From a virus: DNA of 28,871 nucleotides. The stretch lies in the IMG/VR virus record IMGVR_UViG_3300017714_000110, positions 1-28,871 of that record. One strand, given 5' to 3'. Shown here piece by piece: positions 15,271 to 27,453 of this stretch; position 1 is the first letter of the stretch, and each line of letters begins with the position of its first letter. The notes beneath the pieces are model-generated. The model searched no databases, was not told the origin of the DNA, and was given only the letters and a program-made list of their open reading frames with translations. A program made the translations under genes and the position numbers.

Positions 15271-15755
15271 ACATGCCCACAACCGCAACCTGGACACACC
15301 AGGGAAGGGTTATAACATCAATAAAGGATATGCCAGAAGGTACTTACGGATTTATATATGAAGTAATATATAAACCAACAGACGTAAGATACATTGGTAA
15401 AAAAGTGCTTTATTTTGAACGAAATAAAAGATTAGGAAAAAAAGCATTAAAAATTCTACAAGAAGAAAGATCCAAACAAGGTCTTAGAGGACGTACTCCC
15501 GCAAAACAAAAAGTAATTACTGAATCAGATTGGAAAGATTATTTTGGATCCCAAAAAGAAATACTTACATTATCCAAAAAAGATAATTCTGGTAAAAATT
15601 GGGAAAAACGCATACTACAATATGTTCCTACTAAAAAATTACTTACATATTATGAAACTAAATACTTATTTGAAAAAGGAATATTAGAAAATAAGTATAG
15701 TTCTCACATTAATGACAACATTTTAGGTAAGTTTTTTAGGAAAGACTTTGATTAG
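15264..15755 (+). CDS. GIY-YIG-like endonuclease
   Basis: This 163-residue protein carries a GIY-YIG-type start: GFIY at residues 29-32, then RYIGKK at 42-47. A basic middle region (RSKQGLRGRTPAKQK) is followed by a late helix YYETKYLFEKGILE, in which Glu131 is the candidate metal-binding Glu, and then Asn150/Asn152 near the C-terminus. The order fits the single-domain GIY-YIG fold found in T4-like phages. Family members are homing, repair or recombination nucleases that cut DNA using the Tyr pair and one metal ion. The gene overlaps the preceding structural gene, and an alternative start is Met4 (15273). It is free-standing, not intron-borne, and no recognition domain is visible, so the exact role is unclear. 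Confidence 0.65.
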   Translation: MVNMPTTATWTHQGRVITSIKDMPEGTYGFIYEVIYKPTDVRYIGKKVLYFERNKRLGKKALKILQEERSKQGLRGRTPAKQKVITESDWKDYFGSQKEILTLSKKDNSGKNWEKRILQYVPTKKLLTYYETKYLFEKGILENKYSSHINDNILGKFFRKDFD

Positions 15756-15777
15756 CAAAATATTTTTCGTATATTAC
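15748..15777 (+). promoter_or_regulatory. Possible host-type promoter before primase
   Basis: TTG at 15748-15750 and TATATTAC at 15770-15777 are 19 bp apart. This partly matches the Bacteroidota sigma pattern (TTTG, then TAnnTTTG about 19-20 bp later), but the last two bases of the -7 box do not fit. It lies where the genes change from structural to replication functions, and its edge is only 4 bp before the ATG, so the transcript would be nearly leaderless. This is a weak call. Confidence 0.25.
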
Positions 15778-15781
15778 CGTT

Positions 15782-16711
15782 ATGATAAATGAACTATTAG
15801 TTAATTTGGTAAATTCTGTACTTGGTACTGGAAAAAGAACTGCAAGAGGCAATCAAGCTTATTGTTGCCCTTTCTGCCACCATTCAAAGCCAAAATTAGA
15901 AGTTAATTTTTCTGAAAATAAAAAAGGATATAATCCATGGCATTGTTGGGTTTGTGGTAAAAAAGGTACAAGAATATCTACATTATTTAAACAGTTAAAA
16001 GCATCATCTGATAAATTTGCTGAATTGTATAAATTAGTAGCTGAAGAAAAAGAATACCAAACAGTAGAAAATAAAATAGAAGTAAAACTACCTAATGAAT
16101 TTAAACCTATTAGTAATAATTCTACAGATTTAACAGGTAAAAAAGCATGGAATTATTTAAAAAATAGAGGAATTACTATAGATGATGTGTTAAAATATAA
16201 TTTAGGATATTGTGAATATGGGAATTATAGTAATATGATTATTATTCCCTCTTATGATAATAATGGTAAATTAAACTACTTTACAGGTAGATCATTTGAA
16301 AAAGATCCATATAGAAAATATAAAAATCCTGAATCATCACGTAATATTATTCCTTTTGAATTATTCATTAATTGGGATTTACCTTTAATTTTATGTGAAG
16401 GTCCATTTGATGCTATAGCTATTAAACGAAATGCTATACCTTTATTAGGTAGTAACATACAGGGTTCTTTAATGAAAAAGATAGTGACATCAACAGTTAA
16501 AAAAATATATATAGCACTAGATTCTGATGCAATTAAAAAAGCAACCAAATATGCAGAAGAATTTATAAATGAAGGTAAGGAAGTTTACATGGTAGAACTT
16601 CAGGGGAAAGACCCTAGTGAAATGGGATTTACCGATTTTACTCAATTAATCCAAAATACCATTCCATTAACACAATATGATTTAATGGAAAAGAAATTAC
16701 AACTTATATGA
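15782..16711 (+). CDS. DNA primase (zinc finger plus Toprim)
   Basis: This 309-residue protein has the DnaG/T4 gp61 layout. A zinc finger is formed by Cys29, Cys32, Cys55 and Cys58 (CPFC, then CWVC) with a Lys-rich spacer. A Toprim domain follows, with LILCEGPFDAIAI placing Glu206 and Asp210, and IYIALDSDA placing Asp247 and Asp249, the metal-binding acidic residues. A short region near 115-170 (NYLKNRGIT, YFTGRSF) fits the N-terminal subdomain of the primase core. The enzyme makes RNA primers for lagging-strand synthesis and normally partners a DnaB-type helicase, which is not encoded in this window. At 309 residues it is slightly shorter than T4 gp61. The start is the only ATG ahead of the zinc finger. 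The stop overlaps the next gene by 4 bp. Confidence 0.88.
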   Translation: MINELLVNLVNSVLGTGKRTARGNQAYCCPFCHHSKPKLEVNFSENKKGYNPWHCWVCGKKGTRISTLFKQLKASSDKFAELYKLVAEEKEYQTVENKIEVKLPNEFKPISNNSTDLTGKKAWNYLKNRGITIDDVLKYNLGYCEYGNYSNMIIIPSYDNNGKLNYFTGRSFEKDPYRKYKNPESSRNIIPFELFINWDLPLILCEGPFDAIAIKRNAIPLLGSNIQGSLMKKIVTSTVKKIYIALDSDAIKKATKYAEEFINEGKEVYMVELQGKDPSEMGFTDFTQLIQNTIPLTQYDLMEKKLQLI

Positions 16712-17499: not shown

Positions 17500-18297
17500 A
17501 TGATAAGCTTAATTAATATTCTAAAAGAAGCAGTTGATCAACCAAAAGCAATAATATTAGCTGGAGCCCCGGGAGCTGGTAAAGGTTACATTTTAAGAGG
17601 TTTAGATTTAGGTGGTATAAAAATACTAAACGTAGATGATATTTATGTCCCTTTATTAAAAAAAGCCAATGTAACATTAGATTTAAAGAATGCAACTCCT
17701 GAAGAAAGAAGTGAGCAAGCTAAACAAATGGCGGCAGCTAATAAACAATTTAAAGGAGATGTAGAAGCTACTATAGAAGGAAAAGAATCATTTATATTAG
17801 ATGGAACTGGAGCTTCATATAATTCAACAGTTAAATTAAAAAATGAATTAGAAGAAGCTGGGTATGAAGTATTTATGCTTTATGTTTATACTGATTTAGA
17901 ACGTTCATTAAGTCAAAACCAAGATAGATATGAAAAATCAGGTGGAAAAGATAGAAGTTTAGCGCCTGCAATTGTAATGCGTACTTGGAAAGGAGTAACA
18001 GATAATTTACCTAAATATGCTGAATTATTTGGTAATAATTTTGTTGCTGTAGCTAATACTTTAGATGATAGAATGCAAGATATAGATAAAATTATAAATA
18101 AATATCTTACTCCATTTAATCCTAAAGGCACAAAACCTAAAACTCCAAAAGAACAAGCTAAATCTGATGCTAGAAAAGCTAAGGATAAAGAAGAAATTCA
18201 AGCTATGTTAAGTGATGACTTTATATATGATGTAATTGAATACACTATGTCTAAAGAAGAGGCACAAATGCGAATAGGTAAATTCTTAAATTCATGA
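17500..18297 (+). CDS. P-loop kinase with leader-like N-terminus
   Basis: Residues 22-29 (GAPGAGKG) form a Walker A motif preceded by a hydrophobic strand (AIILA). The protein is of the AAA_33/zeta-toxin/polynucleotide-kinase type: NVDDIY follows as a candidate substrate-binding Asp strand, ESFILDGTGAS (around residue 90) is the next core strand, and an Arg-containing lid region (LERSLSQNQDRYE) comes after. The family phosphorylates nucleic-acid ends, nucleotides or small molecules; the substrate here is unknown. The first 11 residues, MISLINILKEA, resemble a capsid-targeting leader ending at a possible prohead-protease site. The C-terminal 60 residues are Lys/Glu-rich (KPKTPKEQAKSDARKAKDKE). 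The stop overlaps the 893-residue multi-enzyme gene by 4 bp, suggesting a joint function. Confidence 0.75.
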   Translation: MISLINILKEAVDQPKAIILAGAPGAGKGYILRGLDLGGIKILNVDDIYVPLLKKANVTLDLKNATPEERSEQAKQMAAANKQFKGDVEATIEGKESFILDGTGASYNSTVKLKNELEEAGYEVFMLYVYTDLERSLSQNQDRYEKSGGKDRSLAPAIVMRTWKGVTDNLPKYAELFGNNFVAVANTLDDRMQDIDKIINKYLTPFNPKGTKPKTPKEQAKSDARKAKDKEEIQAMLSDDFIYDVIEYTMSKEEAQMRIGKFLNS

Positions 18298-20975
18298 GTA
18301 GAGTAATAGCAGCATATGGTGGTGGTTTTAAACCCCCAACAGCTGGTCACTTTGAAATAGTAGATACAGCTTTAGAAAAATTCCCAGAAATAGATGAATT
18401 TATTATTTATGTAGGTAGTAAGGTTCGTGATGGCATAGATCAAACAGAAGCAGTTTTAGTATGGGATATATATCAAGGTTATTTAGCTAATAAAGTTAAA
18501 ATTGAACCCGTAAAATCTCCTATTGGAGATATCCTTAGATTAGCAAAAGATAATCCACAAGATACTATTTATTTTGTAATTGGTTATAGAGATGGTAGAC
18601 AGGATGATTTAGATGATGTAGATGCAAGAACAGGTAATTTAAGTGAAAAATATCCTAATATTGAAGTTAAAGTAATTCCAACTTATAACCCTAATATGAG
18701 TGGAACAAATGCTAGAAAAGCACTTGATCAATCTGAAGAAGAATTTATTCAATTTATACCTTCTAAAATAAAAGAAAAATCAGAAATTTTCCAAATATTA
18801 AGACCCCCAGTTAATGAAGATATTAAAAAAGATGTTATTGATAGCTTTGATATACAAGATACATTAGTAAAAGATGTTTGGGATGATCTTAATTTAAAAC
18901 CAGAAATAAAAGAAAAACTACTAAAAATAGCTCAAGATTTTTTTGATTCATTAGAGCTCCCAGAAGGAACAGTTTTGAAAGATATCAAACTAACAGGAAG
19001 TTTGGCTAATTTTAATTGGTCTAAATTTTCAGATGTTGATTTACATTTAGTAATTGATTTTTCACAAATTACAGATGATGAAAAATTTGCTAAGGATTAT
19101 TTTGATGCTAAGAAGAATTTATGGAATAATGCTCATGATATAAACATATTTGGTTATCCTGTAGAGGTATATGTTGAAGATATAGATGAAGCTCATACGG
19201 CATCTGGTTTATACTCAATTCTAAATGATGAATGGGTTACTATTCCTCAAAATAATAAAATTGTAATTGACAAGGATGATATTAAATCAAAAGCAGAAGA
19301 TTATTTATCTTATATTCCCCAATTAGAAAGAATGTTTAAAGATAAAGAATATGAACAGGTAGTAACAACTATAGATCAGATAAAAGAAAAAATTAGAAAC
19401 ATGAGATCATCAGGTCTTGAAAATGGAGGTTTATATAGTGTTGAAAATTTAGCTTTTAAAGTTTTAAGAAGATCAGATTTTGTAGAAGAATTAAACACAT
19501 TAAAAACAAATGCTTATGATGCTATGATGAGTTTAAATGAAAATATTTCAAAATCTCAACTAGATGCCATTGAAGTTTATGCTGATAAACTATTTTCAAA
19601 ATTAGGTATTGATATTGAGTTTACAAAACATTTTCTTGATAGATTAAATGACAAAAGAAATATAAAACCAATTTCAGTACCTGAATTAACAGGAATGTTT
19701 AAACGTTTACATAGAAAACATGGTAAGCCATTATCTAAAGTAGATGATGATTTTGATGCTGTTGTTAAAGATTTTAATAACAACATTAATATACCGTTTG
19801 CTATAAATGTAACACCTAATGATATTGATTTAGTTGCAAAAACCGTTATGAGAAAAAAAGACTTTAAAACATCAACCCCAGTAATTGCTTTAAATGAAAA
19901 TGCTACATATTCTAAAAATATAAGTGTTCAAGATAAAATAAACCAATTAACACAATATATGATTGATAAGGGTTTAAATATAGAACCATTACCATCAGTT
20001 GAATTAGTGGATGGGGATTCAGAAAATGCTAGTGACTTTTTTGGCAAAACAGCATATTATGATCCTGAAGAAAACCATATTGTATTATATACTGAAGGTA
20101 GACATCCTAAAGATATAGTTCGTTCATATGCCCATGAAATGATTCATCATATCCAAAATTTAGAAGATAGATTAGAAAATATTAGTACTACAAATACTAC
20201 TGAAGATGATAATTTAGAAAAAATTGAAAAAGAAGCATACACAGATGGTAATATTACATTTAGGAATTGGACAGATACATTAAATGAATCCATTGTAAAA
20301 GATAAAATTAAATGTGATGAATGTAGTTGGAGTTGGGATATAGTAGATGGAGGTAATGATTTATTTATGTGTCATAAATGTGGACATGATAATGAGCCTA
20401 TAAATGAAACTAAAGATTATTTTGGATTAAATAAATTTATAAAAGAAGTAGCAAAAGAAATTTTGATTTCTGAAGAAGAAGTCGTATCTTCACCATCTAT
20501 GAAATACAAAATATACTCAGATATGGATGGTGTGTTAACAGATTTTGACAAATCATTTGAAAAATATTCAGAAGGAATACCACCAAGAAATTATGAAAAG
20601 AAATTTGGAAAGGATAAATTTTGGGAATTAATTGATGGTAAAGGTAAAGTTGGATTTTGGGCGGGAATGCCTTGGATGGAAGATGGAAAACAATATTGGG
20701 ATTATATAAAAGATTATGATACTGAATTATTATCTTCCCCATCAAGATCTTCAACTTCAAGATTAGGAAAAAGATTATGGGTTAAAAATAATATGCCTGG
20801 TATAAAATTAACATTAGCTCAAGCATATGCAAAACAAAATTATGCAGCTCCAAATCATATTTTGATTGATGATAGAAAATCAAATATTGATCAATGGATA
20901 TCTCAAGGTGGTATAGGTATTTTACATACATCAGCTGCAGATACAATTCAACAACTTAAAAAATTAGGATTATGA
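18294..20975 (+). CDS. Multi-enzyme protein: NMNAT-like, pol-beta-like, metallopeptidase, zinc ribbon, HAD; possible polyprotein
   Basis: This 893-residue protein joins several unrelated domains. Residues 1-165 are NMN-adenylyltransferase-like (GGGFKPPTAGH at 9-19, MSGTNAR at 135-141; the first His of HxGH is Thr). Residues 185-410 are pol-beta-type nucleotidyltransferase-like (GS at 235-236, DVD at 247-249). Residues 440-530 (KHFLDRLNDKRN; AKTVMRKKDF) are an unassigned conserved-looking domain. Residues 570-660 are a metallopeptidase-like domain with HEMIH at 614-618 and a possible third ligand Glu647. Residues 674-698 are a zinc ribbon (Cys674, 677, 693, 696). Residues 738-893 are a HAD phosphatase (DMDGVLTDFD at 743-752, DD at 859-860). 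Tripeptides [VLI]-N-E at Glu175, 416, 535, 665 and 705, and LISE at Glu727, lie between the domains, suggesting cleavage into separate products. Domain calls are firm for the HAD and NMNAT-like parts and moderate for the others. Confidence 0.82.
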   Translation: MSRVIAAYGGGFKPPTAGHFEIVDTALEKFPEIDEFIIYVGSKVRDGIDQTEAVLVWDIYQGYLANKVKIEPVKSPIGDILRLAKDNPQDTIYFVIGYRDGRQDDLDDVDARTGNLSEKYPNIEVKVIPTYNPNMSGTNARKALDQSEEEFIQFIPSKIKEKSEIFQILRPPVNEDIKKDVIDSFDIQDTLVKDVWDDLNLKPEIKEKLLKIAQDFFDSLELPEGTVLKDIKLTGSLANFNWSKFSDVDLHLVIDFSQITDDEKFAKDYFDAKKNLWNNAHDINIFGYPVEVYVEDIDEAHTASGLYSILNDEWVTIPQNNKIVIDKDDIKSKAEDYLSYIPQLERMFKDKEYEQVVTTIDQIKEKIRNMRSSGLENGGLYSVENLAFKVLRRSDFVEELNTLKTNAYDAMMSLNENISKSQLDAIEVYADKLFSKLGIDIEFTKHFLDRLNDKRNIKPISVPELTGMFKRLHRKHGKPLSKVDDDFDAVVKDFNNNINIPFAINVTPNDIDLVAKTVMRKKDFKTSTPVIALNENATYSKNISVQDKINQLTQYMIDKGLNIEPLPSVELVDGDSENASDFFGKTAYYDPEENHIVLYTEGRHPKDIVRSYAHEMIHHIQNLEDRLENISTTNTTEDDNLEKIEKEAYTDGNITFRNWTDTLNESIVKDKIKCDECSWSWDIVDGGNDLFMCHKCGHDNEPINETKDYFGLNKFIKEVAKEILISEEEVVSSPSMKYKIYSDMDGVLTDFDKSFEKYSEGIPPRNYEKKFGKDKFWELIDGKGKVGFWAGMPWMEDGKQYWDYIKDYDTELLSSPSRSSTSRLGKRLWVKNNMPGIKLTLAQAYAKQNYAAPNHILIDDRKSNIDQWISQGGIGILHTSAADTIQQLKKLGL

Positions 20976-24223: not shown

Positions 24224-24868
24224 ATGAAAAAATCAGAATTAAAAGAAATAATCAAAGCTAACTTCTTATCAGAGGCTGAAGATTCTAAAAAAGGAAACAA
24301 GGAAGAACAAAAACGTATGGAAGGTGCTATCCGTGATGATAGAGACCATATTAAAGACCTTGAAAAAGACATTAAAGATAATGAAGCTAAATTAGCTAAA
24401 TTAAAAAAAGACGAACCTAAAGACGTTTCTGAAGAAATGAAAAAGGATGACGTTGATGAAGCCATGAGAGGTGGAGATGATGATATGGATGAAGGCATGC
24501 GTGGTAAGTATGAAGAAGATGATACAATGAGAGAAGCAGAAGAAGTAGATGTTGAAGATAATGAAGACATTAATGTTGATATTGAAGATGAAGTAAATAT
24601 TGATGATGAATCTGACAAATCAGAAATTGAAGTAGATTCTGAATTAGCAGGAGAAAGTAGTGATACAGCAGCTGTATTAGGTCTTTTAACTAAGGCACAA
24701 GAAAAAGCATCTGCTATGGGAGATGAAAAGTTAATGGATCAAATTGGAAATACAATTACTTATTATACTAGAGCACACGTTGTGGCTTCAACAAATGAAG
24801 AAATTAAAGAAGAAGTAATTAACGAAGAAGTAAATAGATTCAGAAAATTAGCTGGATTAATTAAATAA
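24224..24868 (+). CDS. Acidic prohead-core-like protein
   Basis: This 214-residue protein starts MKKSELKEIIKANFLSEAED, a leader-type helix ending in LSEA. It then runs through a charged coiled coil (about 20-65) and a very acidic stretch (about 70-140, with AEEVDVEDNEDINVDIED) to a short helical domain (about 145-185) and a C-terminus VINEEVNRFRKLAGLIK. The layout of leader, acidic core and protease-type motifs (LSEA, INEE) resembles scaffolding or prohead core proteins such as those around T4 gp22 and gp67, although no direct homology is claimed. It begins a new transcription unit after an exact late-promoter motif. Its low-complexity acidic codons produce a long Ser-rich antisense frame that is not a gene. 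Confidence 0.65.
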   Translation: MKKSELKEIIKANFLSEAEDSKKGNKEEQKRMEGAIRDDRDHIKDLEKDIKDNEAKLAKLKKDEPKDVSEEMKKDDVDEAMRGGDDDMDEGMRGKYEEDDTMREAEEVDVEDNEDINVDIEDEVNIDDESDKSEIEVDSELAGESSDTAAVLGLLTKAQEKASAMGDEKLMDQIGNTITYYTRAHVVASTNEEIKEEVINEEVNRFRKLAGLIK

Positions 24869-25070: not shown

Positions 25071-26996
25071 ATGATCAACGAACGTAAACTTACTAAGGCT
25101 GAACTTAATAAAAGAGAAGATATTATCATGAATATGAAAGATAATAAAAGAGATTTAGTAAAAAAGTATGGTAAGGATGCAGAAGCTGTTATGTACGGAC
25201 GTGCTACTAACATGGCTAAAAAACAAACCAAAGAAATGAGAGATCCTAAAATAACAGAATTAATTAAAGATGCATTAAAAAATCCTAAAAAAGCAGATTT
25301 GAATAAAGATGGTAAGCTATCTGATTATGAAAAAACCAGAGGGGCTGCTATTGAAAAAAATATCAAAGAGGAAGATTTAGAAAGTGGTGCCCATGGTGAT
25401 CCAATAGATGCAGAATTAGATGTTACTACAGCAGCTCCAGATCATACAGAAGAAGAATCTGTATTAGGTTTAGAAGAAGATGCAACACCAAAAGGTGAAG
25501 ATTTTACTTATGATTATGAAGATATAGGTCAATTCTATTTAGAAGGTTTTAATAAACCTCACTCATTAAATAATAGTGAGTTAGAAATATTAGGTAAAAG
25601 AATTGTTAAACAATTATATAAAGGAGATATTGGTAAAGCATATGATGATTTATCAAAACATGCCAATATAAAAGAAGGAACAGATAACGAGATGGAATTA
25701 AAAGGTCGAGAAATGGTTGACTATATAATGAAAACTTGGAATTGGTCCGAAGAAAAAACACTAAAATTTCTTGCAGATAAATTTGGTAATTTAAAAGAAG
25801 ATTTAGATTTAGGCCATGAAGATAATGAACCTAGTATGATTAAAGGTGATTTATATCAAATTGGTAAGGCATCTATGAAATTATATAAAACCCTAGATCA
25901 ATTTGATGGTATGGGTGAGGTAGATTTACCTTCATGGTGGCAAAGTAAAATATTTAAGGCAAAAGAGGCTGTAGTTGGTGCTCAAGAATACCTTGATTTT
26001 GAACTTAACGAACCACAAATTGATGCTGTAGTTGACGCAAATACACGCGTTATAAACAACGACAATGTAGAAGCCATAGATAGCGTTGATATTGATGAGA
26101 CCGTTGAAGATTACATTACATCTGTGGATGATTTAACTGAAGAAAACATAACAGAAGCTATGAATATGAATAAATGGCGCCGTGCCTACAACGGAAAAGC
26201 ATTTGCTAAAAAAACAGTATATCTAACAGATTATAATAATAATAAAAAAAGATATACTATTTATTTTAAATATAAAGAAACACCTTCTAAAGATGTTGTA
26301 TCACTTAAAGAATCACATTATGGTAATCATGAAGGTAGTGGGATGGCATTTTCAATGTCTAATTTACAAAATAAACCAACATATCAATTTACATCAGATG
26401 ATAAATTTGAGTGGGATAATGAAGAAGAATTTGATGCTTGGGTAGCAGAAGGTCCTAAAGGTTTAGAAAGTTTATTAAGCTTTTTTGTAGGTGGTGGAAA
26501 TGTTGATAATGCTATTAGATCTTGGTTTGATACAGGTGTTACTGATAAAAGTAAATTAAGAATAGGACCTGCAGAATATTATCCAGATGCAGCAGTAAAT
26601 GAATCTACTTCATTAGAAGAAAATATGTCAGATGATTTATATTTTTCATTTTTAAATGATTTAAGAGATTCAGGTAAAACTAATATGTTTGGTGCTGCTC
26701 CTTATTTACAATCTGCATTTGATTTAGAAAAAAGAGAAGCTAGAGAAATATTAACTAGATGGATGAAATCATTTAGTGAAAGTATAATTGAAGGTTTACC
26801 TAAAGGATTTTGGGATAAAAAAATCGATGCCAAAGATGAAGACCAAGATGGTAAAGTAGATGAATCATATGATACATTAGTAAATAAAATCAAAAAATCA
26901 GGTAAATCAGAAAAAGCAGCAAAAGCTATTGCAGGTGCAGTAGCATCTTATAAAGCAAAAGGCGGAGGTAAAGGTCCAACAGCAAAACAAAAATAA
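25071..26996 (+). CDS. Multi-domain 641-aa protein, candidate packaged polyprotein
   Basis: Several separate units are visible. Residues 1-50 (RKLTKAELNKREDIIMNMKD; VMYGRATNMAKK) are a basic unit common in large marine phages. Residues 76-87 (DLNKDGKLSDYE) form a complete EF-hand-type calcium loop. Residues 150-243 are helical. Residues 244-314 (SMIKGDLYQIGKASMKLYK; WWQSKIFKAKEAVVGAQEYL) form a helical unit. Residues 365-505 are a beta-rich unit (KRYTIYFKYK; EFDAWVAEGPKG). Residues 518-575 are a helical unit (YFSFLNDLRDSGKTNMFGAA). After a second, incomplete EF-type loop (589-600) comes a Lys/Ala-rich tail. LKE at Glu243, LNE at Glu314, ITE at Glu362 and VNE at Glu511 fall between these units, as expected for protease sites. 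Function is unknown; a virion-internal role is inferred from the context. Confidence 0.65.
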   Translation: MINERKLTKAELNKREDIIMNMKDNKRDLVKKYGKDAEAVMYGRATNMAKKQTKEMRDPKITELIKDALKNPKKADLNKDGKLSDYEKTRGAAIEKNIKEEDLESGAHGDPIDAELDVTTAAPDHTEEESVLGLEEDATPKGEDFTYDYEDIGQFYLEGFNKPHSLNNSELEILGKRIVKQLYKGDIGKAYDDLSKHANIKEGTDNEMELKGREMVDYIMKTWNWSEEKTLKFLADKFGNLKEDLDLGHEDNEPSMIKGDLYQIGKASMKLYKTLDQFDGMGEVDLPSWWQSKIFKAKEAVVGAQEYLDFELNEPQIDAVVDANTRVINNDNVEAIDSVDIDETVEDYITSVDDLTEENITEAMNMNKWRRAYNGKAFAKKTVYLTDYNNNKKRYTIYFKYKETPSKDVVSLKESHYGNHEGSGMAFSMSNLQNKPTYQFTSDDKFEWDNEEEFDAWVAEGPKGLESLLSFFVGGGNVDNAIRSWFDTGVTDKSKLRIGPAEYYPDAAVNESTSLEENMSDDLYFSFLNDLRDSGKTNMFGAAPYLQSAFDLEKREAREILTRWMKSFSESIIEGLPKGFWDKKIDAKDEDQDGKVDESYDTLVNKIKKSGKSEKAAKAIAGAVASYKAKGGGKGPTAKQK

Positions 26997-26997
26997 T

Positions 26998-27453
26998 ATG
27001 ACAGCGGCAGAATTAAGGGAAAAAGTTAGATTACTTGTTCCAACTCTCGTTGGTAACAGAAAACAAGCTGAAGCAGCTGCTGTTGAATATGATGAATTTG
27101 CCAAATTTCCAGAACTAAAAAAAGTAATAGTTGATTTATTAACTCATGAATTTGATAATTTTATATCATCAATTGATTGGGTTGCTCCAAAACCTACTAC
27201 ATTTAGAATAAATTTAAAAAACGATTTTAATTTCTATCTAATATTTACAAGAACAAGTTGGATAGCCCAAGTTGAAGGTAAAAAATATTACTTACTTAAT
27301 TTACCAGAAGAAGAAAGAGCTATTGATGCTATTGCTCGTATTTTACGATATGGCGCTCCTGAAACAGCAGAATCTGCTGATGGGGGTTCATCTGATAGTG
27401 GGGGTGAAGAAGTAGATGTTGACATTGATGATACAACAGACATAGATATATAA
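26998..27453 (+). CDS. Small protein with acidic tail, unknown
   Basis: This 151-residue protein has a helical N-terminus (TAAELREKVRLLVPTLVG), an alpha/beta core (FRINLKNDFNFYLIFTRTSW, KKYYLLNLPEEERAIDAI) and an acidic tail (GEEVDVDIDDTTDIDI). No family is recognised. The tail resembles the acidic stretches of the 214-residue core-like protein and of the next protein (EEEVEIDVDV), possibly a shared interaction element for assembly. It follows the 641-residue gene by one base and shares one base with the next gene (TAATG), so these genes are translationally linked. Confidence 0.6.
   Translation: MTAAELREKVRLLVPTLVGNRKQAEAAAVEYDEFAKFPELKKVIVDLLTHEFDNFISSIDWVAPKPTTFRINLKNDFNFYLIFTRTSWIAQVEGKKYYLLNLPEEERAIDAIARILRYGAPETAESADGGSSDSGGEEVDVDIDDTTDIDI

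Follow-up and report, generated by a model that had tools for sequence, protein, structure and literature searches.

The head protease gp21 of phage T4 cuts after L/I-x-E (PMC9026906), and this motif, targeting by the capsid targeting sequence (CTS) and the injection of internal proteins have been described (PMC9026906, PMC3012670). In IPIII, processing is inhibited by an Asp at CTS position 10 (PMC9026906). Each of the internal proteins IPI, IPII, IPIII and Alt is a single cargo encoded by its own gene, with a single short propeptide at the N-terminus; Alt has a further one at its C-terminus (PMC9026906, PMC3012670). The locus studied here resembles this system in the Peptidase_S77 of its relatives, in an L/I-x-E-type motif, in variable small units and in CTS-like starts, which here lie in neighboring genes, but it has many units per ORF with the motif between them, and the units lie in different genes of different relatives. 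The T4 core proteins gp22 and gp67 likewise have several gp21 sites in one protein, although their fragments mostly leave the head, whereas the pieces here look like conserved domains, one of which is an ORF elsewhere. Several head and ejection proteins of SPN3US and phiKZ are cut after x-x-E, some of them multiply, by gp245/gp175; however, 13 of the 14 sites mapped in SPN3US trim N-terminal propeptides, and the available portions of these reports do not describe a multi-cargo precursor (PMC10052503, PMC5694885). The polyvalent proteins of phages and plasmids are also multidomain, thought to be delivered to the host and frequently rearranged, but their processing has been ascribed to built-in metallopeptidase domains (PMC5512222), whereas here the head-protease motif stands at the seams and the scans gave no peptidase match. 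In the open-access literature we found the processing of single cargo proteins, but no description of a precursor that holds several cargoes and is cut by a prohead protease, nor of one that shuffles its units.

The window analyzed, a viral stretch of 28,871 nucleotides (IMG/VR record IMGVR_UViG_3300017714_000110), belongs to a T4-like phage (gp20/gp21/gp23) that probably infects marine Bacteroidetes. Its features are as follows, with the basis of each assignment in brackets.

18294 to 20975, plus strand: 893-aa protein with the same seam rule as the 641-aa protein (PHROG matches, junction analysis)
25071 to 26996, plus strand: whole ORF of the 641-aa modular protein (ORF translation and homologue alignment)
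25083 to 25370, plus strand: unit A, residues 5-100 (alignment; PHROG_12788 on residues 14-73)
25371 to 25478, plus strand: acidic linker cassette, residues 101-136, ESGAHGDPIDAELDV...GLEE (alignment, pI)
25479 to 25676, plus strand: unit B, residues 137-202, DATPKGEDFTYDYEDIGQF...NIKE (homologue matches)
25677 to 25799, plus strand: unit C', residues 203-243, ending in ...MVDYIMKTWNWSEEKTLKFLADKFGNLKE (homologue matches)
25800 to 26099, plus strand: unit D, residues 244-343, DLDLGHEDNEP..., with the conserved Glu314 inside (seam contexts)
26100 to 26156, plus strand: acidic linker, residues 344-362, with LTE and ITE at its end (alignment, pI)
26157 to 26603, plus strand: unit E, residues 363-511 (seams; separate alpha/beta model)
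26604 to 26792, plus strand: unit F, residues 512-574, LRDSGKTNMFGAAPYL...WMKSF (alignment; stand-alone ORFs elsewhere)
26793 to 26864, plus strand: unit G, residues 575-598, GLPKGFWDKKIDAKDEDQDGKVDE (alignment, seam contexts)
26865 to 26993, plus strand: unit Z, residues 599-641, basic, pI 10.2 (alignment, seam contexts)
26998 to 27453, plus strand: 151-aa neighboring gene (translation comparison)

An earlier note had taken the 641-aa protein for a chain of six or more units, basic ones among them, separated by motifs at Glu243 (LKE), Glu314 (LNE), Glu362 (ITE) and Glu511 (VNE). The motifs are where it placed them, and those at Glu243, Glu362 and Glu511 mark true seams. Glu314 does not mark one, because it is conserved within unit D in the relatives that have this unit and is followed by Pro. 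The chain consists of eight to nine units, and the seams at Glu100, Glu136, Glu202, Glu574 and Glu598 and at the invariant Glu4 had been overlooked. A basic character applies to the first unit (pI 9.4-9.9) and to the last, but not to most of the middle units, which are acidic. The Pfam scan of the protein found no family, and the PHROG scan gave a single weak match, PHROG_12788 (unknown function), on residues 14-73; neither scan found a peptidase or another recognized conflict domain, or sequence homology to the T4 internal proteins. A PDB sequence search gave no match, and no cassettes common to the 641-aa protein and other genes of the window were found at E 1e-4. The AlphaFold model of the full protein had a pLDDT of 45 and was not usable for folds.

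The scan of viral contigs for relatives of the protein returned 42 loci, some of them nearly identical, and the query stretches matched differ between relatives. When 13 distinct proteins were aligned, that of the window and 12 relatives, the middle units were found to behave as cassettes, which are inserted, lost or replaced, while unit A is conserved at one end and the basic unit Z mostly conserved at the other. Unit A, which follows a four-residue N-terminal stretch ending in the invariant Glu4 (MINE|) and contains DLNKDGKLSDYE, EF-hand-like by eye, is conserved at the start of those aligned relatives whose N-terminus is complete. Unit Z closes those aligned proteins whose C-terminus is complete, except for L012, in which a further unit follows the Z-like stretch, and L019, whose C-terminal part has no match to the window protein. 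Between them, the linker cassette 101-136 is missing from several relatives, and a similar stretch lies in a neighboring gene of L018. Unit C' is shared with Flavobacterium phage immuto, whose host is Flavobacterium sp. LMO8, and with a 157-aa protein of L043, and most relatives have another sequence at this position. L005, L006, L007, L014 and L018 have a VELPTSIIQKF-type unit as an insertion, L015 has another sequence in place of the D unit, and unit F is present, among the 13 aligned proteins, in those of the window and L003 only. The clearest case is L021-L041, in which the Glu itself marks the insertion point of a unit of about 57 residues, and the precision of this insertion is seen in the comparison of L021 with L024. 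The comparison of homologues that the earlier note had suggested thus gave the result it foresaw: the units shuffle like cassettes, and the Glu motif lies where they join. As a separate observation, Ser/Asn-rich linkers (NSNENSNDN...) adjoin some units in L004, L012 and L051 (15113-16279).

Several units also occur outside this arrangement. Unit B is found in otherwise different proteins of 192-330 aa with CTS-like starts, and no relatives of it were found in the bacterial genome collection. Unit E has dozens of residues that are invariant among relatives, and when modeled alone it gave a mixed alpha/beta structure (pLDDT 70, pTM 0.66, nine sequences), a prediction that fits an independent domain; fold searches with it, in the PDB and in the viral library, matched nothing at E <= 0.001. 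Unit F stands alone in 36 ORFs of 49-87 aa and is embedded in 15 longer ones. In 9 of its 10 distinct embedded contexts, an [LIVMF]-x-E motif (hereafter PhixE) lies no more than 15 residues upstream of the core, approximately where the stand-alone copies start; L084, L085 and L109 have unit F without a nearby upstream PhixE. The end of the unit (WM-x-S-F-x-E) is partly PhixE in stand-alone copies too, and therefore only the upstream side was counted. Records with embedded copies of unit F could not be told from those with stand-alone copies by the presence of S77. Unit F itself, a small domain without a name, occurs in at least 122 viral-contig stretches (26604-26792 in the window; loci L071-L150), and Pfam and PHROG gave no match over it in eight long ORFs that carry it. 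Exchange of genes and units is also seen between immuto and the window: the homologue of the 151-aa gene is, by our own reading of the translations, the C-terminal unit of an 841-aa modular protein in immuto, QQO92109.

PhixE stands exactly at the seam in 32 of the 35 distinct upstream junction contexts examined for seven units. For unit D, 9 of 11 such contexts end in it exactly at the seam, and immuto and L091 have none exactly at the seam before the D unit. Since the anchors of the 32/35 count were picked from the alignment, we made an independent test on clean indels of at least 20 aa in pairwise alignments of ORFs from the loci, which gave 67 independent junctions and was run over 140 P3-x-P1 classes. 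PhixE was observed at 38 of these junctions against 10.8 expected (P = 4e-14) and was the only class enriched, the next-best class (P = 0.002) losing its significance once the 140 tests are allowed for. By our own reading, the 67 junctions include some in ORFs of L052 and L162 that are of low complexity or in the wrong frame, and therefore the share among real proteins is higher. With clean indels of at least 15 aa, 80 of 236 fell within 2 aa of PhixE against 20.9 expected. A tail-protein control yielded only four indels, none at PhixE, which is too few to weigh. Breakpoints taken from BLAST ends were noisy and weakly enriched, and clean indels were used instead. At the DNA level, 48 seams comprised 27 different 9-mers, with 7 P3 codons and 11 P2 codons, while the P3 and P1 residue classes were kept; since the seam DNA varies, the constraint lies at the amino-acid level.

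The seam motif, as read from the sequences, matches both the gp21 motif and the expected cut site of the major capsid protein (MCP). At the position at which T4 gp23 is cut, the MCP N-termini of relatives read VME|E, VTE|N and VSE|A (by our own by-eye alignment to T4 gp23), and their gp22-like proteins are rich in PhixE. PF03420 (Peptidase_S77, the gp21 family) was matched in 5 of 7 related records with E about 1e-31, three of the five being near-identical, and a prohead protease is annotated in immuto. In these relatives, terminase, portal, protease, core protein and MCP lie in this order, all of them downstream of the modular gene. The record of the window stops short of the gp21/MCP module, and its gp21 is therefore deduced from the relatives, the closest of which is the L003 record (84% identity in the best segment). 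The N-terminus of the 641-aa protein, MINE| with the invariant Glu4, has only four residues and looks unlike the T4 CTS of roughly 10; neighboring genes have longer CTS-like starts, such as MKKSELKEIIKANFLSE.

We therefore consider it likely that the 641-aa protein is a modular precursor that gp21 cuts into several internal head proteins, the products of which are probably injected. The precursor would enter the core of the assembling prohead, probably through its conserved N-terminal unit, and gp21 would then cut after the Glu of PhixE at the seams to give several small proteins, which would remain with the DNA and be injected. We infer this cleavage, packaging and injection, as well as the function of each unit in the protein. 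Because cutting would part the units, they could be gained, lost or swapped without needing to fold together, and the gene could therefore evolve as an array of cassettes.

The main rival to this reading is that the protein is a component of the scaffold or core like T4 gp22 and gp67, in which gp21 cuts the same sites, the peptides leave the head and no cargo is carried. T4 gp21 does cut gp22 and gp67 into multiple fragments (PMC9026906), and the position of the modular gene close to the head cluster, the strongly acidic character of several linkers in the 641-aa protein and the abundance of PhixE in the gp22-like proteins here would all suit such a role. However, the units are conserved individually, as seen in the invariant residues and domain model of unit E and in unit F, which is its own ORF in many phages; the sister 893-aa protein has enzyme-like domains, and a scaffold that is shredded has no obvious need for swappable folded domains. 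We regard this explanation as unlikely.

It could also be supposed that the protein remains uncut as a multidomain "polyvalent" protein, the seams being flexible linkers that tolerate recombination and PhixE a habit of linkers or a recombination hot spot. Such phage proteins are known, with processing proposed through their own metallopeptidase domains (PMC5512222), but the Pfam and PHROG scans of the 641-aa protein gave no peptidase domain. A hot spot or linker habit also agrees poorly with the enrichment of the gp21-like motif alone among 140 classes, with seam DNA that varies while the P3 and P1 residue classes are kept, and with the occurrence of PhixE at the expected MCP cut site, and we hold this possibility to be decidedly improbable. 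That the motifs arose by chance, the protein being simply long and helical, with much L, K, N and E and no special architecture, is compatible with the count of [LIVM]xE in this one sequence (17 against 12.1 ± 3.0 in shuffles, P = 0.07; 2.8 per 100 residues, inside the range of the other window proteins), which we dropped as evidence because it is not significant, but is refuted by the cassette shuffling and junction statistics of the homologues and has a negligible probability.

The 893-aa protein, to which the earlier note had likened the 641-aa protein, combines several PHROG domains that are unrelated to one another with a 5'-nucleotidase unit at its C-terminus; in immuto, this unit is a separate gene. 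The 893-aa protein also gave a weak metallopeptidase-like match, DUF6782, below the cut-off. The likeness is borne out by the seam rule, which holds in the 893-aa protein and in other nearby genes too, so that a general strategy of this phage, as had been suggested, finds support at the sequence level. Whether some T4-like phages carry evolvable multi-effector polyproteins, with one head-targeted precursor giving many small injected proteins and the protease motif serving as a plug-in joint, appears to us evenly balanced.

T4 IPI is a precedent for internal proteins that block host restriction. If the cutting is true, PhixE seams in T4-like head-gene neighborhoods would allow candidate injected proteins to be read from unannotated ORFs, many of these candidates being small orphan units without a Pfam name. 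It would also suggest how such phages add to their internal proteins with no need for further promoters or targeting signals.

Other ORFs of the window and its relatives deserve mention. A Zeta-toxin-like kinase at 17500-18297 (Pfam E 4e-17) has a CTS-like start, MISLINILKE|A, and may for this reason be packaged in the head. The 214-aa protein at 24224-24868 has a CTS-like helix, MKKSELKEIIKANFLSE, at its start, and its last residues, EEVNRFRKLAGLIK, resemble those of the relatives' gp22-like proteins (...MVARFKKLAGII). In two records the S77 matches (G008, C1:111382-111720; G015, C1:80951-81286) are contained in longer open frames, of 688 and 588 aa, respectively, and the protease may therefore be fused to something else. 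In L015, a 343-aa ORF (15371-16402) has a second CTS-like sequence, MENFDLKKYLAEGKLLNE, at residues 89-108, which suggests, from its sequence, a former gene that has been fused.
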